The notes beneath the pieces are model-generated. The model saw only the letters and a program-made list of their open reading frames with translations, ran no database searches and was not told where the DNA came from. From a virus, in the IMG/VR virus record IMGVR_UViG_3300046460_000401, positions 1 through 22,297 of that record: 22,297 nucleotides of DNA; one strand, given 5' to 3'. The position numbers and the translations under genes are program-made. Below are positions 1 to 9,130 of the stretch, one piece after another (position 1 is the stretch's first letter; each line of letters opens with the position of its first letter).

Positions 1-1050
1 CTATTTTGAGGGTTTGGCGATGGCGCCAATGCGGCGATAAACCCGTTCGGTAATGTCGCCTTTCGTGTGTCCAAGCAGCAGGCTGGCGTCACCCACATCG
101 CTGATCTCCGAAGCGGCTTTTGGGCGAATGTCCCGGAACTGAAACTCACCAATCCGTTTTGCAAGCAGCTCATCGCCCTTTTCTAGTGCCTCCAGTTTCG
201 CCTTTTCTCGAGCCGCATCCCATCGCTTCCTAAGCATCGTCGCCGTCATACGCTTGCCGCTTCGGTTGATGATTAAGTAGCTCGAAACGTGCATAACATT
301 TCGCTCAATGATCGCCGCAATTAAGTTGCCCAGGCTGTTTGATTCTCCGGCGGTCGTCATCTGAATACGCAGCTTTTTGTGCGTTTTGTTCTGCTGAACA
401 GTTAGATACCCGCCCACCACATCATCCTTGCGCATGACCAGCACGTCGGCAGGCCGCTGGCCCGTCAGATAAGCCAGATCCATCGCTTCTTTCAGCTCCT
501 GAGCTGCCTTCATATACACCGCATCCCAAACCAAATCGTTGGCGTAATAATCCCTCGGCGTTTCCTTATTTTTGCGCACACCTTGGCAGGGGTTTTCCTT
601 TGTCGTCAGCCCCCATTCACGGGCAATATTGAAAATGTGGGATAGAGTTGCTATCTCGCGATTTGCCCTGACCTTTGCTGACCGCGCATCCCGATAGCCA
701 GCAATTGTTGCCGGCGTAATTGAGTCGATAGGGGCACTATCGAACATCGGCCGAAGCTGCTTGATTTCCGCCAGGTTGTCCTTTTGCGTTCGCGGTGCTT
801 TCTTAGGCACCACGTCACGTATGTACCGGTCAAAGATTCCCTTCATGGTGCGCAGGTCTAGCGGCTTCTCCTTGGCTTCCAGTTCGGCCCATTTAAGTCT
901 GGCCTTGTCGAGATCCTTGCCCAACGGAATGTCGTGGCCGAGCAGATCTCGGTAATAGTAAGCCGTCCATATGTTGCCGTTTTTACGCTTCCTAGAACGC
1001 TTGTACATCCGAGGGGGGAGGTGCTGGTGCTCGGTCTTGCGGGGGCGCAT
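1..1050 (-). CDS. int: Phage tyrosine integrase
   Basis: Site-specific recombinase expected to integrate and excise the phage at its att site. It is 349 aa, a normal length for a phage tyrosine integrase. An N-terminal basic segment (about 1-60) would bind arm sites, a core-binding helical domain spans about 65-160, and the catalytic domain about 165-345. Visible active-site residues are R199 in TGQRPAD, K222, R309 in FRDIRPKAAS, H328 in LLGHTK and Y338. The usual first histidine of HxxR is replaced by R306, as in a known FRDxR subgroup. The stop codon occupies bases 1-3, so attP, if next to int as in most lambdoid phages, lies just outside the window. It is the last gene of the leftward transcript, directly after the DUF4224 gene. 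Confidence 0.95.
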   Translation of the reverse strand: MRPRKTEHQHLPPRMYKRSRKRKNGNIWTAYYYRDLLGHDIPLGKDLDKARLKWAELEAKEKPLDLRTMKGIFDRYIRDVVPKKAPRTQKDNLAEIKQLRPMFDSAPIDSITPATIAGYRDARSAKVRANREIATLSHIFNIAREWGLTTKENPCQGVRKNKETPRDYYANDLVWDAVYMKAAQELKEAMDLAYLTGQRPADVLVMRKDDVVGGYLTVQQNKTHKKLRIQMTTAGESNSLGNLIAAIIERNVMHVSSYLIINRSGKRMTATMLRKRWDAAREKAKLEALEKGDELLAKRIGEFQFRDIRPKAASEISDVGDASLLLGHTKGDITERVYRRIGAIAKPSK

Positions 1051-1051
1051 A

Positions 1052-1294
1052 TCAGTTCACTCGCGAATAGTCTGGCGTCCATGCCGGCACTGTCGGCGGC
1101 GGGTTTGGGTCGGCAATGGCGGGGTTAATCATGCCCAGTTTCATGCGTGCGTACATCCGACCCACGAGTGGGCGTTTGCCGCGGCTTTCGATGAACACCC
1201 ACTGGCGATCAATGAGCCATCGGCGCTGGTAGGCCCGAGCCTTGTAGCCGGTGAGTGCAGCCAGTTCCTCGTCGGAGAGGATTTCGGTTTCCAT
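1052..1294 (-). CDS. DUF4224 domain protein next to integrase
   Basis: An 80-aa protein beginning METEILSDEELAALTGY and continuing with a Q-R-R-W-L motif, the signature I associate with DUF4224. Members are small phage proteins nearly always encoded immediately upstream of integrase. The N-terminal part resembles a short helix-turn-helix, so an excisionase-like or directionality role is plausible but is not established for the family. It lies one base before int and is surely cotranscribed with it. A palindromic repeat (1337-1369) sits about 45 bases upstream of the start, in the space shared with the divergent membrane-protein gene at 1447. Confidence 0.85.
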   Translation of the reverse strand: METEILSDEELAALTGYKARAYQRRWLIDRQWVFIESRGKRPLVGRMYARMKLGMINPAIADPNPPPTVPAWTPDYSRVN

Positions 1295-1336
1295 TGTGAT
1301 GCTCCATTCCGCGCGTGGCGGCCGAAGGGGGGGCGC

Positions 1337-1369
1337 CCTTGCCGCTATAGCGGCTGACTTTCAAGGGGG
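1337..1369. repeat. Palindrome-containing repeat, copy 1
   Basis: A 33-base unit with the perfect 14-base palindrome GCCGCTATAGCGGC (1341-1354) followed by GACTTTCAAGGGGG. A second copy at 2028-2060 matches 31 of 33 positions by eye. Each copy lies between the start of a leftward phage gene and a divergently read accessory gene. It could be an operator, a leader hairpin or a recombination anchor. The sequence alone does not decide. Confidence 0.8.
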
Positions 1370-1446
1370 TTGTGGTTTAGGATCGGGCTACGTTGGCCGA
1401 TATCTGAGTACGCTGATTTGCAAACTAATTGAATGGAGTATTAGCT

Positions 1447-1839
1447 TTGAGAGCGGTCAATCGAGTTATGGGGTTTTTGAGGCGCTGTCAGTATTGGTGG
1501 CTCTTGCTCATGACCACGGCCTCGCTTCTAAACATCTGTATTCGGTTCATTGGAGATTGGAAGAGTTTTTGGACTGTGCTTCTTATCCAGGTGTTTTTTG
1601 GTCAAGCAGTGTTCGCATTTATAAGGGGAGCAGCCATTCACGTTGCGCCTGGCGGACGTCTTTCCAAGGACGCGGATCCAGTTGGCCGAGCTGGATTAGC
1701 GGCATTTTCACTTGCAGTTTATTTTTTAGCTTTTGGTTACGAGCCTGCAAAGCAAGAACAATCAATCTATGAGAAAAGAGCCTCGGATTGGACAATCCCT
1801 GCGCGCGAAGAGATTGGCAGGTCGGCTGAGCAGCAGTAA
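1447..1839 (+). CDS. Small multi-pass membrane protein, accessory
   Basis: A 130-aa protein that I do not recognise. Hydrophobic segments near residues 16-34, 40-60 and 84-98 predict about three membrane helices, with a hydrophilic C-terminal tail, so it should sit in the inner membrane. I chose the TTG at 1447 because GGAG lies 9 bases upstream. Another in-frame TTG at 1429 has no ribosome site. It is read against the surrounding early genes, convergent with the truncated gene ending at 1619 and divergent from the DUF4224 gene. Base composition is AT-richer than the phage backbone. An overlapping frame (1251-1772) is open by chance and gives no protein-like pattern. A lysogenic-conversion or superinfection-exclusion role is inference only. 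Confidence 0.6.
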   Translation: MRAVNRVMGFLRRCQYWWLLLMTTASLLNICIRFIGDWKSFWTVLLIQVFFGQAVFAFIRGAAIHVAPGGRLSKDADPVGRAGLAAFSLAVYFLAFGYEPAKQEQSIYEKRASDWTIPAREEIGRSAEQQ

Positions 1840-2020
1840 TTGATAGTGGTGCATGCTGTTGATCCTCCGCAGGTTCAACGGTCAAACCCTGCTCCGCTAC
1901 CCAGGCCTTGCACTTGTCGCCGTCACCCTCGTCGAAGTCCGGGATATCCGGATGTTGGAACGAGCCCATTTCGTCGCGCACGACCTTTGCTGGCTGGATC
2001 AATCTGATTTCTTCAGACAT
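1619..2020 (-). pseudogene. Truncated phage gene, 5' part only
   Basis: The first 50 or so residues (starting MSEEIRLIQPAKVVRDE, with an acidic PDIPDFDEGDGDKCKAW stretch) look like a conserved short hypothetical of Pseudomonas phages. After about residue 52 the frame merely runs antisense through the accessory membrane-protein gene until a chance stop at 1619. The genuine 3' half is therefore missing, replaced from roughly 1850 leftward by the insert. The start is supported by AAGGA 8-9 bases upstream, inside the second palindromic repeat. The product, if made, is a chimera of 133 aa and unlikely to be functional. Confidence 0.6.
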
Positions 2021-2027
2021 GAGTCGT

Positions 2028-2060
2028 CCTTGCCGCTATAGCGGCTTACTTTGAAGGGGG
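2028..2060. repeat. Palindrome-containing repeat, copy 2
   Basis: Second copy of the unit at 1337-1369, with the same 14-base palindrome at 2032-2045. Here it is only 8 bases from the leftward start at 2020 and supplies that gene's ribosome binding site (AAGGA on the minus strand). On the other side it abuts the accessory membrane gene at 2108. Confidence 0.8.
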
Positions 2061-2107
2061 AGGAGGAATAGCTACACTCATCGCCTTACCAATGGAGGGT
2101 GTGTTCG

Positions 2108-2749
2108 GTGAAGCGATTTAACACGGTACTGATGTGTCTATATTGCTCGTTGCTTTTTTTAGCGGGAGTCGTATTCAGCTTTCTATTTACAAAAACGGGA
2201 GAAGTTGGTTTTGTTGCTTTCTTGGGTGCGGTGGCTAGCTTGGCAACCATCGGCGCAGCTATAACGGCGATTTATGCGTTAAATATCTGGTATCCGCAAT
2301 TTAAGCATTCCGAAAAATTTAAAGCCTTGAAAAGGCTGCGAGAGATTTTGGATGCCGGGAACTCTGCTGAAAAATATATCGAGTCTGTATATTTTGATTG
2401 TATGCGGAGAAATACTAATGAAGTAAGCTCTGGAACTAGAGCAATGGATATGAGGCACGAAGCGAAGGTAAAGTGGCGTCGTCAATGCCTAAGTGTTGAG
2501 CGTTGCTGGGATGACCTGGAAACGCTTTTCTCTCAGAGTGAATTGGCGGCTTTTTCTGATGTGCCAAAGGATATTGATATCGCAGTTGAGAGTCATGTGC
2601 AGAATATCGAATATATGACTTCGGATGGAGCTTCTGTAGATTTCATCCAGTTGGGTCTTCAAGTTAGCGATGTATGCCAAAATGTGAGGTTAAGGATTAA
2701 ACATGTCAGTGATGATTCAAAAGATTTGATATCAAAGTTATTGAGTTGA
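2108..2749 (+). CDS. Two-helix membrane-anchored protein, accessory
   Basis: A 213-aa protein of unknown family. Two N-terminal membrane helices (about 6-27 and 33-55) are followed by a roughly 155-residue soluble, mainly helical domain with many charged residues and several cysteines. This places the bulk of the protein in the cytoplasm. GTG 2108 was chosen because GGAGG ends 9 bases before it. The in-frame GTG at 2099 is too close to that site. The gene looks clearly AT-rich against the phage genes. It lies between the divergent phage gene start at 2020 and a decayed phage gene ending near 2754. The architecture resembles the proteins at 5519, 6766 and 8362, suggesting a common theme (membrane-tethered sensor or exclusion factor), but no homology can be claimed. 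Confidence 0.7.
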   Translation: MKRFNTVLMCLYCSLLFLAGVVFSFLFTKTGEVGFVAFLGAVASLATIGAAITAIYALNIWYPQFKHSEKFKALKRLREILDAGNSAEKYIESVYFDCMRRNTNEVSSGTRAMDMRHEAKVKWRRQCLSVERCWDDLETLFSQSELAAFSDVPKDIDIAVESHVQNIEYMTSDGASVDFIQLGLQVSDVCQNVRLRIKHVSDDSKDLISKLLS

Positions 2750-2753
2750 ATTA

Positions 2754-3081
2754 TCTCTACTAAGTGGGTTGCTAAGCGTTCTCGAGTGAATTTGGCTGTA
2801 GATCAGCGTGCTTTCGAAAGTCGCGTCCTTGATAGCTTCGACCTCCCAGGCGTAGTACTGCGGCACACGACGCGGCCTTCGGCGAAGTCGATCCCATAGT
2901 CGTAATCGATTCGCTTGGTCTGCACGGTGAAAATCACGGCGGCAGTGAGGTTCCGCTTAACGCCGGCGCCGTTGCAGTGATAACGGAGTCGTTCGACGAA
3001 GTCGGTTCAGGTCGAAGCATCAAGCGCGGCGCCGGTCGCCAATGTCGGCATCGGCACGGCCGGTTTGTTTTCTGTGAGCAT
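2754..3081 (-). pseudogene. Decayed phage hypothetical gene
   Basis: Starting at ATG 3081, the frame gives MLTENKPAVPMPTLATG and so on, then meets a TGA at 3007-3009. It continues in the same frame with a protein-like stretch (FVERLRYHCNGAGVKRNLT, then TKRIDYDYGIDFAEGRVVC). Near 2860 the protein-like signal jumps to another frame (YYAWEVEAIKDATFESTLI). This is the pattern of a leftward phage gene with an in-frame stop plus an internal deletion or frameshift, cut off at its 3' end by the insert carrying the 2108 gene. Function of the parent gene is unknown to me. No other gene is visible between 2750 and 3160. Confidence 0.6.
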
Positions 3082-3125
3082 AGGGAATACCTTTGGAGTA
3101 TGGCTTTTTGCCTTTATCTGTTGTA

Positions 3126-3161
3126 TTTGAACCGCTCAGTCCCTACACGGAGCGGTTCAAA
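3126..3161 (+). promoter_or_regulatory. Inverted repeat enclosing the RBS of the 3161 gene
   Basis: TTTGAACCGCT (3126-3136) and AGCGGTTCAAA (3151-3161) are perfect 11-base inverted repeats with a 14-base loop. The right arm contains most of the GGAG ribosome site (3149-3152) and the A of the ATG start. It could be an RNA hairpin that hides the start region, or a DNA operator for autoregulation. Confidence 0.7.
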
Positions 3162-4099
3162 TGGCTGACGGATCTGGTAAAAAGGCTCAAAACTGGGCTA
3201 GCAATCGAATAAAGCACGCGTTGCATCTTCCTGGCTGGGTTTTCAGGCAGGATCGCGAGGCGACTTTGCGTGCCAATGGAAGACCGGTGCTCGTATCTGA
3301 GTATCAGCCAGAGATGAAGGGCGCGCTCTTTTGCCCTGAGTGCTGCTGCCCCCTGTTTCGCTCGCCTGAAAAGGAAGAGGCCAACAAAAAGGGCAAGAAT
3401 GCTTACTATGCACATCGACGTAACATCGTGACTGAGTGCGGCCTAAGAACGAATAAGGCTGAAGGAAAGAAATACTTGACCGAAGAGGAGGCAGCCCAGG
3501 CTATCGCCGACGGAAAACTAGTCATCGTTAAGGGTTTCTTGAAAGATAAACCTGTTTCACCCGACAAAGAAGCCGAAGTTTATAATCAAACAGCGGTGGA
3601 GGATGAGCAAGGTGAAGTATCAGAGGTTGCTATTGGGCGCCATCGAGGTGAAAAATTCAATCTTCCAAGCACTCTGACCACGGTGCGAGGACTATGCACC
3701 AAATTCGATGAAAATCTATATAAGTACTATGTTTTTCCAGAGAAGCAGCATGCGCAGCTACTCCTCGATGCTCTCCGTAATGTGACAACACTTGTTTCCA
3801 CTACCGAGAGCCCAATTCTTGGATATGGACGAATCGTTAGTATTTACGAACCAGGTAAGCGTCCGCAGAGCACTCGATTTGTGAAACTGGCTTTTGAAGC
3901 AAAAGGCGGCTACGGGGACTTCTCTGTGATGATTTCACAGCATGAGGCTGATCTGCATAATCTTAATACTCAATCGATTGACCGATTTGCTATTTTCTAT
4001 GGAAAAATAAGTGTGAATGGCGGCGGTTTGAGTGTGAAGAACATTGGTTGGGGAGAAGTCGCTTTGCTGCCGACAAAATACGAAAAATTCCTAGATTGA
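3161..4099 (+). CDS. CoiA-like zinc-module protein, accessory
   Basis: A 312-aa soluble protein with no signal peptide or membrane helix. Residues 58-93 hold CPEC (C58, C61), two further cysteines (C62, C63), YYAHRR (H85) and C93. This arrangement resembles the Cys/His module found before the nuclease domain in CoiA-like proteins (CPxC ... HFAH ... C). The remainder, including a Glu-rich linker near 105-155 and a beta-rich C-terminal half (about 200-312), matches nothing I know, and I do not see a PD-(D/E)XK core. The ribosome site GGAG lies 8 bases before ATG 3161. It is alone on its strand, divergent from the decayed gene at 3081. A role in DNA or RNA handling or in phage defence is inference from context. 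Confidence 0.7.
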   Translation: MADGSGKKAQNWASNRIKHALHLPGWVFRQDREATLRANGRPVLVSEYQPEMKGALFCPECCCPLFRSPEKEEANKKGKNAYYAHRRNIVTECGLRTNKAEGKKYLTEEEAAQAIADGKLVIVKGFLKDKPVSPDKEAEVYNQTAVEDEQGEVSEVAIGRHRGEKFNLPSTLTTVRGLCTKFDENLYKYYVFPEKQHAQLLLDALRNVTTLVSTTESPILGYGRIVSIYEPGKRPQSTRFVKLAFEAKGGYGDFSVMISQHEADLHNLNTQSIDRFAIFYGKISVNGGGLSVKNIGWGEVALLPTKYEKFLD

Positions 4100-4374: not shown

Positions 4375-5423
4375 TTAGACGCCTGAGCGCTTGAGCTGTT
4401 CCATAAGCTGGGTTGGCAGGCCGCGGGTCATCGTCCCGCCGGCTTCGTCGAATTCAATCTGCGATCCTAGCAAGTGCTGCTCGAAGCTGATCGACAGGCC
4501 CTCGGCACGACCGGTGAAGCGCCGGAATTTGTTCAGGGTCTTCTTAACAGCCGGAATGGTTGGCGACATGCCGTATTCCTTGTCGAGGATGAAGTTGACG
4601 AACGCCTTGGGCCGGTCTTCGTTGATCAGCTCGGACAGCTCGTCGATAGTGATCGGCTCACCCAACTTGGCTTGGGCCATCGAGTAACTGACAAACGTGT
4701 GCGTCTTCTCGCGGGCGGAGTCTTCCGCAGATCTTAGCTCTCGACGAAGTCACTGAACGCTTTGAGCAGGGTTCGCGTTTCTCCCTGGCCGTCGACGCCT
4801 TCCTGGTAGCCGATGAAGTCGCGAAAGTATTCATTGGATTTGCGCCCTTGCTTACCCTTGAAAAACGAGATGTATTGTTTCGATGATGGGTTTTCCTTCC
4901 ACTCTGTGAGGTTGATTCGAGCGGCCAGGCTGAAGTGATCAAGATTGAGTCGGCGAACAGTTGTTGTCAGAAGGTGCTCGTTGATCGTCCACGCTTCGAC
5001 TTCCTGGAGCAGCGCGATGGTCAGGTACTGCGTCATACCTTGCTGGTAGTGACAGAAGAGAGCATGACCGCCGACCGTGAGATTCGATTCTTCCATCAGC
5101 TTGGTCAGGTGCTCGGCAGCCATCTGGCTAAAGTCGCGGAAAGCAACGCCGTCACCATGCACCGATCCGCGGGCCATATATTACTGAGCCAGCCGCTGAA
5201 TGGGTACGCGCCTGACTCAGCATGAAGCAGACCCCAAGCCTTGCCGGCCTTGGCGTTATAGCTGATGTTTAGGTCGTGCATCAAATCATCGGCGACCTGC
5301 GCATCAGCGAGAGTACGGTCAGCAAGAGTACGGTCAGCGAGGTGAAGAATGGCTGGGGTGCCGTCAGGCTTCTTCTCGATCTTGTGGATGATGATCTGGC
5401 GAATGGGAATGGTGATGACCTCG
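4375..5423 (-). pseudogene. yejK: Frameshifted yejK/ndpA-like nucleoid-associated protein
   Basis: Three leftward reading-frame segments join into one YejK (37-kDa nucleoid-associated protein) homologue. The N-terminal part ([10 protein letters not shown] through a [20 protein letters not shown]-type motif) lies at about 5420-5180. The middle part ([21 protein letters not shown] and [13 protein letters not shown]) ends with TAA near 4734. The C-terminal part ([24 protein letters not shown] to [10 protein letters not shown]) ends at 4375. Frame changes fall near 5180 and 4735. A 15-base in-frame tandem duplication (5306-5335) doubles LADRT. The expected initiator of MPIRQ reads ATT, so the start is also lost or altered, and the 5' edge meets the repeat at 5440. 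YejK proteins bind DNA in the host nucleoid. Several phages carry copies, and this one should be inactive unless frameshifts are sequencing errors. Confidence 0.8.
5306..5335. repeat. 15-base tandem duplication inside yejK remnant
   Basis: AGCGAGAGTACGGTC followed by AGCAAGAGTACGGTC, 14 of 15 identical and in frame, duplicating LADRT on the minus strand. A typical replication-slippage product. Confidence 0.8.
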
Positions 5424-5439
5424 GGTGCGCGCCGCCCTC

Positions 5440-5493
5440 CGTGACCGGTGGTGGCAATTTGGTTTGGATTGGGGTATTACGGGTAACTGGCAT
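5440..5493. repeat. 54-base repeat, copy 1
   Basis: Starts with GTGACCGGTGGTGGCAATTT and ends in GGTAACTGGCAT. The second copy at 7352-7403 is nearly identical. The minus-strand reading ([14 protein letters not shown]) looks like the first codons of a phage gene, and the plus-strand frame is also open. Here it joins the 5' edge of the yejK remnant to the upstream side of the PutAbiC-like gene. Confidence 0.75.
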
Positions 5494-5518
5494 GGAGTCA
5501 GATAAAGTGGAGCAGGTA

Positions 5519-6319
5519 ATGAATAAGAAATCGCGACTTGATTTTTATATAGGGCTAATAATCTTATTTATCATAGGGGCATATATAGCTTATTGGACTT
5601 ATCTTTATGCTGGATTAGATTCCGCGCCACTCGGTGTTCTAGATCGAACTCGTTCTGGGACATTTGGTGATGCGTTTGGCGTAGTAAACGCTCTTTTTTC
5701 AGCGCTGGCATGCAGCGGTGTTGTTGCGACTCTGCTGTACCAACGGCGAGATCTATCCGCTCAAAAGGAAAAATCGGACATGCAGCAATTTGAAACGCAG
5801 TTTTACAGTCGTTTAACATTGCAGCAAAATGTTGTCGATAGACTTGATCTGGTAGACAGTAAAACAAAGGCGGTAATAGCTACTGGACGTGACTGCCTTA
5901 AAACTATTTTTCGTGAAATGAAGAGAATCTACTCTGCTGCTATTAAGACGCGCAAACACGACACCGCACTTACGAAATCTTACTCTGTTGTATGGGGGCA
6001 TTTTCATAGTGACTTAGGTGTCTATATGAGGTCACTTTACAGTGTTTTTAAATTCGTGTCGGAGAGTGAGTACCCCGATAAGAAAAAATTGGGCGTGGTT
6101 GTAAGGTCGCTATTGTCGGATTTCGAATTGGCTCTCATTTTTTACAATTGCTTAAGCGAAAAAGGCGAGAGCTTCAAAAGGTATGCTGAGGAGTTTCATT
6201 TATTTGACAATCTGGATATAGATATTTTGATGTTGAAAGAGGATGTATGTCGATTGCCAAAAGCAGCATGGGGCAACAATGCCGCTGCTCTAGCGGTTTT
6301 CAAGATGCATGAATCTTAG
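5519..6319 (+). CDS. PutAbiC-like putative phage abortive infection protein
   Basis: A 266-aa protein with two N-terminal membrane helices (about 9-30 and 54-74) and a cytoplasmic helical domain. The GTFGDAFGVVNALFSALA stretch (about 47-64), QFETQFYSRL (90-99) and the later YSVVWGHFHSDLGVYMRSLYSVFKF region are the pattern of the putative phage abortive infection family (PutAbiC, PF16872). Named members are thought to stop phage growth by killing or disabling the infected cell; the mechanism is not known. ATG 5519 was chosen because GGAG precedes it by 6 bases. The in-frame ATG at 5492 has no such site. The gene is AT-rich, opposite in strand to the early operon, and flanked by the yejK remnant and a truncated phage gene, so it looks like a prophage-carried defence gene. 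Confidence 0.8.
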   Translation: MNKKSRLDFYIGLIILFIIGAYIAYWTYLYAGLDSAPLGVLDRTRSGTFGDAFGVVNALFSALACSGVVATLLYQRRDLSAQKEKSDMQQFETQFYSRLTLQQNVVDRLDLVDSKTKAVIATGRDCLKTIFREMKRIYSAAIKTRKHDTALTKSYSVVWGHFHSDLGVYMRSLYSVFKFVSESEYPDKKKLGVVVRSLLSDFELALIFYNCLSEKGESFKRYAEEFHLFDNLDIDILMLKEDVCRLPKAAWGNNAAALAVFKMHES

Positions 6320-6332
6320 TGTTCTTTGATAT

Positions 6333-6428
6333 CTATATTATATTTGGTGTGGCGTCCATTGCTTTCGCGTTCTCGCGATTCTTACGGTGTCTGATGGCTT
6401 CCGCCGTCAGCTCCTGTTCCTCGGCCAT
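6333..6428 (-). pseudogene. Truncated phage gene, 31-codon 5' remnant
   Basis: A leftward ORF beginning MAEEQELTAEAIRHRKNREN and stopping after 31 codons at a TAG inside the tail of the PutAbiC insert. Its leader has AGAGGT before ATG and shares the CGGAATTGAAGAGGTAG repeat with the intact gene at 8216. The charged, helical N-terminus looks like a genuine gene start, so I read it as the stump left when the neighbouring insert replaced the 3' part. Confidence 0.5.
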
Positions 6429-6429
6429 G

Positions 6430-6452
6430 GCCTACCTCTTCAATTCCGCTGG
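6430..6452. repeat. Leader repeat (CAGCGGAATTG type), copy 1
   Basis: CCTACCTCTTCAATTCCGCTG on the plus strand, or the ribosome-site leader CAGCGGAATTGAAGAGGTAG on the minus strand just before ATG 6428. Two further copies are at 8220-8240 and 9050-9072. Confidence 0.7.
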
Positions 6453-6507
6453 CTGGCACGTAAGTAGGTGGTGTCTATGCTTCAACTCACACTGGCAGGA
6501 GGCCGAC

Positions 6508-7287: not shown

Positions 7288-7351
7288 ATAGTTTGATGCT
7301 TTGACCGCATGGTCGACGCTCATCGATATTCGAACTATCCAGATGCCCCCC

Positions 7352-7403
7352 CCGTGACCGGTAGTGGCAATTTGGTTTGGGTTGGGGTATTACAAGTGAC
7401 CGG
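7352..7403. repeat. 54-base repeat, copy 2
   Basis: Second copy of the element at 5440-5493, with GTGACCGG repeated at both its ends. The minus-strand reading (PVTCNTPTQTKLPLPVT) ends at a TAG about five codons further on, so any phage gene that began here is cut off by the insert carrying the 6766 gene. The 7439 gene starts 36 bases downstream. Confidence 0.75.
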
Positions 7404-7438
7404 CAAGGGGCCGGCAAAAAATCATAGGAGCAGATTCC

Positions 7439-7892: not shown

Positions 7893-8216
7893 CTAATCAT
7901 CATTCAAAGCCCGCAGCGCCTCTCGTTCGTAGGAGTGCTGCAGCTTCCGTGACATGTTTTCGCTTATGATGATTTTAGGTCGCGACATGTCGGCGAATCG
8001 TGCGGACTCTTCAGTAGACGCCCCAGCGATGTTGATCAGGAACGTCGACACCGTCTCCTGCCATTCCTCGAAGTCGTGGCGCTCGCCCAGCACTTGAAGT
8101 GCATCAGCGAGCGCTTTCGACACAATCAGCGATCGCTTCTCGGCGCCGATCCGATCCAGCAGCGCCTTCTCCTTGGCTCGCTTGTCCTTCTGCAATTGCG
8201 CGTTGCTCTTGGCCAT
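7893..8216 (-). CDS. Conserved-looking phage hypothetical protein
   Basis: An intact 107-aa leftward gene. The N-terminus is a strongly charged helix (MAKSNAQLQKDKRAKEKALL), followed by a helical body containing LADALQVLGERHDFEEWQET and a basic C-terminus. This suggests a small nucleic-acid-associated protein, possibly ribbon-helix-helix or other short DNA-binder, but the fold cannot be assigned by eye. The AGAGGT leader lies 7 bases before ATG and belongs to the CGGAATTG repeat. It is part of the PL transcript and, unlike most of its neighbours, undamaged. Confidence 0.75.
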   Translation of the reverse strand: MAKSNAQLQKDKRAKEKALLDRIGAEKRSLIVSKALADALQVLGERHDFEEWQETVSTFLINIAGASTEESARFADMSRPKIIISENMSRKLQHSYEREALRALNDD

Positions 8217-8219
8217 GAC

Positions 8220-8240
8220 CTACCTCTTCAATTCCGCTGT
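8220..8240. repeat. Leader repeat (CAGCGGAATTG type), copy 2
   Basis: Same 20-base core as at 6430, directly upstream of the intact leftward gene at 8216, where it provides the ribosome site. Confidence 0.7.
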
Positions 8241-8361
8241 CTGCGGTCAAACACCATGTATTGCACGGACGAGATTCAGCGAATAGATAAGCGTGATGGC
8301 TTAACGATGGTGCATCTATGCCATCTCGCGTAATATCCCGAAAAAACACAAGGGTGGATAC

Positions 8362-9016: not shown

Positions 9017-9130
9017 TTAGTCGGTAGTGACGATTATTATTTTAGAGGCTACCTCTCCAATTCCGCTGGCCGGCAAGTCCAGCCAGGTCTGTGGGCGGCG
9101 TGTCGTCGCCTGGTTACTGATGCGTTTCAT
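9017..9130 (-). pseudogene. Truncated small phage gene
   Basis: An ATGA overlap with the stop of the 9127 gene starts a leftward frame (MKRISNQATTRRPQTWLDLP, then ASGIGEV) that leaves phage-like sequence near 9048 and stops 10 codons later inside AT-rich insert sequence. The residues ASGIGEV fall in the third copy of the CGGAATTG repeat. I read it as a cotranscribed phage gene with its 3' part replaced by the insert carrying the 8362 gene. It could still give a 37-aa peptide. Confidence 0.5.
9050..9072. repeat. Leader repeat (CAGCGGAATTG type), copy 3
   Basis: CTACCTCTCCAATTCCGCTG, one base different from the other two copies across the core. No start codon follows it on the minus strand, so the gene that would have begun here has been replaced. 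Confidence 0.65.

Follow-up and report, generated by a model that had tools for sequence, protein, structure and literature searches.

A hairpin leader ahead of varied genes in Pseudomonas temperate phages that looks like a joint for gene exchange

The sequence analyzed here, which we refer to as the window, is the whole stretch of 22,297 nucleotides at positions 1 to 22,297 of the IMG/VR virus record IMGVR_UViG_3300046460_000401. Its first part contains the genes for an integrase and an excisionase, 2 copies of a short repeat, and cargo genes in divergent orientation, with the following coordinates (features marked "by eye" were identified by inspection).

1..1050, minus strand: int, tyrosine integrase
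1052..1294, minus strand: xis (DUF4224; PHROG 4764 excisionase)
1309..1321, minus strand: small hairpin CCGC-CACGC-GCGG ahead of the xis Shine-Dalgarno (SD) sequence (GGAG, 1305-1302), by eye
1337..1369, minus strand: type-1 leader, copy 1, consisting of CCCCCTTGAAAGTCA, hairpin and AAGG, without a start codon of its own
1341..1354, minus strand: hairpin of copy 1, GCCGC-TATA-GCGGC
1429..1839, plus strand: cargo ORF 1, divergent, between both copies
1859..2020, minus strand: 5' part (about 54 codons) of a resident gene, PHROG 1372, the remainder of which is missing towards cargo ORF 1
2018..2031, minus strand: SD of copy 2, AAGGA (2031-2027), spacer CGACTC and ATG (2020-2018)
2028..2060, minus strand: type-1 leader, copy 2, consisting of CCCCCTTCAAAGTAA, hairpin and AAGG
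2032..2045, minus strand: hairpin of copy 2, GCCGC-TATA-GCGGC
2099..2749, plus strand: cargo ORF 2, divergent, adjoining copy 2
3079..3094, minus strand: start region like the type-2 leader (AAAGG-TATTCCCT-ATG, then CTCACAGAAAAC), without the type-2 hairpin, by eye
3161-4099, plus strand: cargo ORF upstream of the type-2-like start region

A preliminary description of this DNA had reported that the 33-base copies at 1337-1369 and 2028-2060 match at 31 of 33 bases and contain a perfect palindrome, each between divergent genes, and that the second copy provides the ribosome site of the resident gene. All of this was confirmed. A repeat search extended the pair to 1334-1380 and 2025-2071 at 83% identity, and the palindrome GCCGCTATAGCGGC was found in exact form at 1341-1354 and 2032-2045 only, in the whole window. 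With up to 2 mismatches, it had 3 matches against 0.13 expected, a number reached in none of 100 shuffled sequences (0/100), and the repeats are not due to chance. Copy 1 is flanked by xis (start at 1294, minus strand) and a plus-strand ORF with its start at 1429, and copy 2 by the resident ORF, which starts at 2020 on the minus strand, and another plus-strand ORF with its start at 2099. The preliminary description needed correction with regard to the direction of reading: both copies are read on the minus strand, which is the strand of int and xis.

The AAGGA at 2031-2027 in copy 2 is located 6 bases from the ATG at 2020, and copy 2 is a complete leader of a resident gene that lacks its 3' part. 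In copy 1 there is no adjoining start codon, and the AAGG, which reads AAGGGCG, continues into a separate xis leader; this copy is a leader that lacks a gene of its own and is fused to the one of xis. The small hairpin of the xis leader has a stem of no more than 4 bp, and neither of the hairpin scans returned it. At the corresponding site, phage PseuP_222 reads GCCGC-CATGC-GCGGC, and here the same xis leader as in the window is placed after the stop codon of another gene. The DNA similarity between PseuP_222 and the window stops at 1333, beside copy 1. Searches of Pfam, PHROG, and PADLOC with cargo ORF 1 (1429..1839, plus strand) gave no match, and cargo ORF 2 (2099..2749, plus strand) had no Pfam match above the cut-off. 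No sigma-70 promoter for the cargo was predicted within the repeats, and the region 1200-2900 had a single match (2726-2754), compared to 1.8 expected. Folded alone, the window copies were not unusually stable, with z-scores of 0.22 (93 nt with copy 1) and -1.79 (59 nt with copy 2). No Rfam family matched the window or 6 related loci at the gathering score. An ar14 match that overlapped copy 2 (E 0.55, 18.6 bits against a gathering score of 58.8) and 2 matches at 1834-1908 (E 1 and 1.4, in a search of 1200-2200 with E up to 10) were taken as chance.

The element is widespread. A scan of viral contigs for GCCGCTATAGCGGCAAGG returned at least 120 stretches, and most of the 121 copies that were set in register were preceded by CCCTCCCCCTTCAAAGTCA and followed by CGAAGTC-ATG-CCTGAAGAAA, both of them absent from the query. 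A genome scan anchored on the leader and the SD gave 63 stretches, 59 of which were from Pseudomonas by title, and 50 of these 59 contained the exact palindrome; the other 4 (L139, L167, L175, and L182), which were not Pseudomonas by title and had an unrelated middle, resembled chance matches and were left out of this count. In the genus of Pseudomonas sp. BCA17 (L126), the element was found with at most 1 mismatch in 115 of 398 genomes, some of which represent chance matches, because a reversed pattern gave 29 hits in 27 of the same 398 genomes (hand count). At least 80 genomes in this genus had an exact match among the matches listed (hand count). The 58-nt consensus matched 9 phage records, including 2 duplicate pairs and 2 partial matches, with no match to plasmids at E up to 0.01 and none to E. 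coli at E up to 0.1. Of 40 viral records, which may be fragments and which were picked from the loci such that all carry the element, 37 contained a single copy at 2 mismatches or fewer, 2 contained 2 copies, and 1 contained 3 copies. A copy was located within about 10.4 kb of the record end, and pointed towards it, in 38 of the 40 records, G010 and G014 being the exceptions. In 4 annotated phages the element shared the strand of int and preceded that gene; a fifth matching record was hardly annotated. The preliminary description had counted absence from related phages, or random positions in them, as evidence against a role for the repeat; the element turned out to be common and start-proximal.

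A start codon followed by an open frame of at least 30 amino acids, or by one running off the end of the locus, was present after 183 of 191 copies, and in 112 of these 183 the start codon was located exactly 12 nt after the palindrome. The proteins encoded downstream were sorted into 34 clusters, 19 of which had 2 or more members, although these are blastp groups rather than proofs of unrelatedness, some singletons being frames cut by the end of the locus, and clusters 4 and 5 seem by eye to be related at the N-terminus. In 183 distinct 130-mers, with positions counted from the palindrome, conservation was limited to a block of approximately -19 to +38, and the flanks were near random. The SD AAGGA falls inside this block, and the conservation extends to the first codons. 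The layout of the leader, about 58 nt in total, is a C-rich stretch, a GCCGC-loop-GCGGC hairpin, the SD AAGGA, and the start codon. We also noted that 17 of 221 distinct copies (e.g. L209-L222) had AAAGG in place of AAGG after the hairpin, most of which retained AAAGGA and a start codon, and that 42 of the 221 type-1 copies (e.g. L018, L024, and L070) had an inverted repeat, GAGTACATCCGTACTC with 2 mismatches or fewer, at 34-40 nt ahead of the hairpin.

Genes upstream of 215 copies were predicted with a gene caller that was crude and self-trained. The closest one was divergent and at most 250 nt away for 53 copies, equally close but on the same strand for 97, and more distant for 57; for the other 8 it was off the edge of the locus. 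The placement of the palindrome at boundaries to divergent cargo, which was reported previously, thus holds for the window, but for 162 of the 215 copies the caller predicted no divergent gene over this upstream distance of 250 nt.

The first scans were unable to test the palindrome as such, because it was required in the query. We therefore turn to a viral scan in which T was barred at the first loop position, and which returned 92 stretches with 82 distinct copies that had enough flanking sequence. With this palindrome-free query, 76 of the 82 copies, including 65 of the 71 non-canonical ones, had a stem of 5 bp or longer, 4 or more of them G-C pairs, whose 3' end was 0-2 nt from the SD. The corresponding figures were 0 of 82 for the adjoining 30 nt on the upstream side and 1.5% for shuffled sequences. 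The 6 failures comprised three 4-bp stems of the GGCC/GGCC type, two of the CCGC/GCGG type, and 1 copy without a stem. There were 21 different loops, the most common of which were GATATG (22 copies) and GTGT (21 copies), a variety that is partly due to selection since the scan picked altered loops; the informative part is the survival of the stem. In the 398 genomes, a query for the SD and start gave 77 places, of which 42 were canonical, 31 had other stems of at least 5 bp, and 4 had stems of 3-4 bp, in a count made without a control. Because the stem persists across copies retrieved by a query that lacks the palindrome, whereas the loop differs among them, the palindrome is best described as one allele of a predicted RNA hairpin rather than as a DNA operator.

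The stem arms were nearly invariant, with GCCGC/GCGGC in 67 of the 76 hairpins, and there is consequently little compensatory change within type 1. Among the matches listed for the 398 genomes, changes that keep the pairing (C-to-T) outnumbered G-to-A changes by 10 to 1 (hand count), while the viral scans showed the reverse at the inner pair, with C5 showing no real change and G10 replaced by A in 4 loci. The RNA and the DNA reading are not told apart by single-base variants. In a MAFFT alignment of 24 hairpins, the arms flanking 6-nt loops were out of register, and pair counts were made without this alignment. When 353 copies that had been selected for the hairpin were folded, the pairing of the 3' arm was 97.5%, and the predicted accessibility of the SD was 0.49, compared to 0.47 with shuffled upstream sequence. 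Sequestration of the SD by CCUU in the leader was considered and is unsupported as a rule by these values, and insulation of the start site is favored over a switch because the accessibility of the SD is about the same as with shuffled upstream sequence.

To describe how the genes on either side are combined, the DNA flanking 201 copies was clustered into 110 upstream and 48 downstream groups, which occurred in 184 pairings compared to 179.4±3.2 (SD) under shuffling. Of 236 pairs with a common upstream group, 27 (11.4%) also had a common downstream group, with 12.7% expected. Likeness tracked the upstream gene at most positions to the left of -3 and the downstream gene at most positions to the right of +19, while the core from -2 to +18 tracked neither side, which is partly forced by its presence in the search pattern. 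The switch in linkage cannot be placed more finely, since this core could hardly vary. For 169 copies, the ratio of joint to independent sharing was 1.08 at the element, compared to 2.8 at -800, 2.6 at -600, 3.4 at -400, and 3.4 at +800, and was also low at +400 (1.30) and +600 (1.14); 8 further junctions from -300 to +300, except 0, are confounded because one of the compared stretches includes the element. In these loci, which were mostly picked for carrying type 1, the groups on the two sides of the element are paired essentially at random, and other such places may exist. The suggestion in the preliminary description that the repeat could be a recombination anchor thereby gains statistical support from both the pairing of the flanks and the change in linkage.

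The junctions themselves were of several kinds. The leader was canonical in 193 of 215 copies; the remaining 22 had other leaders, with the junction at the 5' edge of the palindrome or close to it. In L206-L208, a small divergent cargo was located between 2 full palindromes, and in L027, L048, L057, and L210, half-elements consisting of the leader plus GCCGC or GCCGCT were found upstream of full ones. The leader-bearing phage phiAH14a, the sole one checked for recombinases, has genes for an Erf-like annealing protein and for a RecE-like exonuclease, both located upstream on the same strand.

Leaders with the same layout but other sequences were also identified. Of the 1102 AAGGA-start sites in the loci, 373 had an abutting hairpin, compared to 16, 26, and 34 at 3 offsets, and 295 of the 373 hairpins had the GCCGC/GCGGC arms for which most loci were picked. 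Of the 1358 starts on the type-1 strand, 277 had an abutting hairpin (110 with GCCGC/GCGGC arms) compared to 49 and 41 in the offset controls, and on the other strand the number was 65 of 703 compared to 23 and 24. A second family of the CCGGG type, CTCCCCCACTCCACCGC-CCGGGCATGGCCCGGC-AAGGACTCCCC-start, had 57 copies in front of 12 downstream clusters, 8 of which had 2 or more members, and in all 58 of the 58 cases in which a CCGGG-type site shared its strand with type 1, it was located upstream of the nearest type 1, at a median distance of 1.3 kb. A third family, with the arms GCCTGCCG/CGGCGGGC, had 121 copies. Sites of this third family, the GCCUGCCG type, identified with a looser pattern, were located downstream of type 1 in 91 cases, but their order is not strict because another 29 were upstream and 5 on the opposite strand. 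With a looser hairpin filter, copy 2 was the sole minus-strand start in the window that passed, along with 5 plus-strand starts (6766, 13614, 13949, 15713, and 21818).

Other repeats and genes in the window may be mentioned here. A repeat pair at 5435-5506 and 7348-7419 on the plus strand, 82% identical and ahead of cargo, contains hairpins recognized by eye, CTGGC-ATGGA-GTCAG at 5487-5501 and CCGGC-AAGGG-GCCGG at 7400-7414, in which one pair is altered on both sides; the 14-mer CCGGCATGGAGCCG, which is related to this pair, precedes 58 start sites in 21 rough groups. A three-copy repeat is located at 6420-6455, 8208-8243, and 9037-9072, and its copy at 8216, read on the minus strand, is a start leader without an obvious hairpin (CAGCGGAATTGAAGAGGTAGGTCATGGCC). 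The cargo protein encoded at 5276-6319 (plus strand) matched putAbiC in Pfam and AbiP in PADLOC and is for this reason probably an abortive-infection defence. The ORFs at 4375-4680 and 4734-5177 (minus strand) matched different parts of the NA37/NdpA nucleoid-associated protein, the gene for which is therefore apparently broken.

We propose that the repeat is probably a portable translation-start leader of Pseudomonas temperate phages, located on the int-xis strand, which doubles as a joint for exchange. In the mRNA, a short G+C hairpin would form directly 5' of the SD (AAGGA), after the C-rich stretch, in front of which the stop codon of the previous gene is often found, and would give the next gene a defined start site that is independent of the upstream content. 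Since the same 40-58 nt precede many genes, the leader is DNA that is common to phages with differing genes, and this shared sequence would make the leader itself the exchange joint. Exchanges, probably through the annealing recombinases of the phages themselves, may be resolved in or beside the leader, such that the gene on one side is swapped while a working start remains. From the sequence comparisons we infer the function in translation, the recombinase route, and the function that has driven the conservation.

Several alternatives make use of the same observations. The least improbable, though still unlikely, is that the block is a pure recombination linker, kept only as shared homology for the recombination of modules, with an incidental hairpin. 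The random pairing of the flanking genes, the change in linkage across the element, and the conservation into the first codons all agree with such a linker, but the stem is retained where the loop, the leader, and the downstream gene differ, and this counts against it because homology alone would not preserve base pairing; moreover, other sequences with the same layout recur ahead of other genes. The preliminary description had offered both a leader hairpin and an operator for the 2 directions. Whereas the former is favored by the preferred spacing to start codons and by stems that are kept while loops change, we regard it as highly unlikely that a symmetric regulator binds the palindrome as DNA and controls resident and cargo genes both ways. 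The most common allele is indeed a perfect 14-bp palindrome with a nearly invariant stem sequence, and both window copies are located between divergent ORFs. However, dyad symmetry, by which an operator would be recognized, is not conserved: many alleles with non-palindromic loops (GTGT, GATATG, GAGTGA, and GTTA) retain the hairpin and the SD. The element also has a fixed orientation relative to the start codon, with a preferred spacing, a same-strand gene is predicted within 250 nt upstream of 97 of 215 copies, and the large majority lack a divergent neighbor there.

It is just as hard to credit the hairpin as a target at which divergent cargo is inserted by a site-specific or hairpin-recognizing enzyme. 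The cargo between 2 full palindromes in L206-L208 and the half-elements upstream of full ones in L027, L048, L057, and L210 would fit such insertions, but the cargo ends are unlike among L206, L207, and L208, and no divergent gene is predicted within 250 nt upstream of 162 of 215 copies. Least probable of all, by a small step, is a signal in transcription, be it a terminator, a nut-like antitermination site, or a Rho-related site, as might be suspected from an intergenic hairpin with a C-rich, G-poor stretch ahead of it and from the terminator-like score of copy 2 on the plus strand. The scan for intrinsic terminators reported the palindrome on the plus strand only (2032-2045) and not on the int strand, where the hairpin is followed by AAGGA instead of a T-run; the number of terminator-like sites, 3 compared to 1.8 expected, is within chance, and the spacing to the SD and the start codon would be left unexplained.

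The proposal of a translation-start leader can be taken one step further, more tentatively and with somewhat less than even confidence. The positions in the run of early genes on the int side may be addressed slots with their own hairpin types, GCCGC near int-xis, CCGGG upstream, and in addition the GCCUGCCG type and the xis type, into which recombination would swap genes so that each ends up in the right slot. All would have the same layout of C-rich stretch, hairpin, SD, and start, with the differing hairpins serving as addresses, so that gene order and translation are kept and the run is not scrambled. If true, this would amount to a natural modular cloning scheme.

The leader bears on the open question of how mosaic phage genomes maintain the expression of genes that they have newly acquired: one short element is both a candidate translation start and a site at which neighbors lose their linkage, in over a hundred viral contigs. 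Judged by its sequence, the leader of these Pseudomonas prophages looks like a plug-in joint that would permit gene swapping with translation kept. The link between gene exchange and expression becomes directly testable in laboratory Pseudomonas phages, and the leader provides a handle to find accessory and cargo genes of unknown function.

Boundary or linker sequences in lambdoid phages are short stretches of homology between unrelated modules and are thought to allow module exchange. The Pseudomonas leader is similarly shared at the junction of randomly paired neighbor groups, but here the boundary itself is a candidate translation-start hairpin that is common to many gene families. Rad52-like recombinases of phages carry out relaxed homologous recombination and have been associated with homology-driven shuffling among temperate phages (PMC3945230). 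The Erf-like protein of the leader-bearing phage phiAH14a is in line with such a system, whereas the parts of that article covered here describe no specific short leader, and the use of the leader by these enzymes is our suggestion.

The exact palindrome was found in no paper of the literature searched, which does not prove its absence from print, and 5 longer or related strings matched only papers on other subjects. The element is not mentioned in the passages on repeats, hairpins, and palindromes of the articles on PseuP_222/224 (PMC10305613), phiAH14a (PMC4936722), and P. syringae prophages (PMC13182921); those on phiAH14a describe 2 imperfect inverted repeats at other coordinates (PMC4936722).

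The closest known kind of element is the start-associated sequence (SAS) of cluster K mycobacteriophages, a short conserved sequence in the position of the ribosome site, by the starts of varied gene families outside the structural genes, with the consensus GGGATAGGAGCCC and 11-19 copies per genome, for which a role in translation initiation was suspected in the passages covered here (PMC3203893). The extended SAS (ESAS) adds inverted repeats just upstream, of 17 bp with a variable spacer (PMC3203893). Like the SAS, the Pseudomonas leader is in the position of the ribosome site a few nucleotides from starts (183 of 191 copies, 112 at 12 nt) and precedes different families (34 downstream clusters, 19 with 2 or more members). 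Unlike the SAS, it has another consensus, based on 183 distinct copies, and is single in 37 of 40 records, which may be fragments, and it has one 5-bp hairpin abutting the SD instead of the 17-bp repeats of the ESAS. For the Pseudomonas leader, the random pairing of genes on both sides has in addition been measured. By analogy, the leader appears to work like the SAS without being a member of it.
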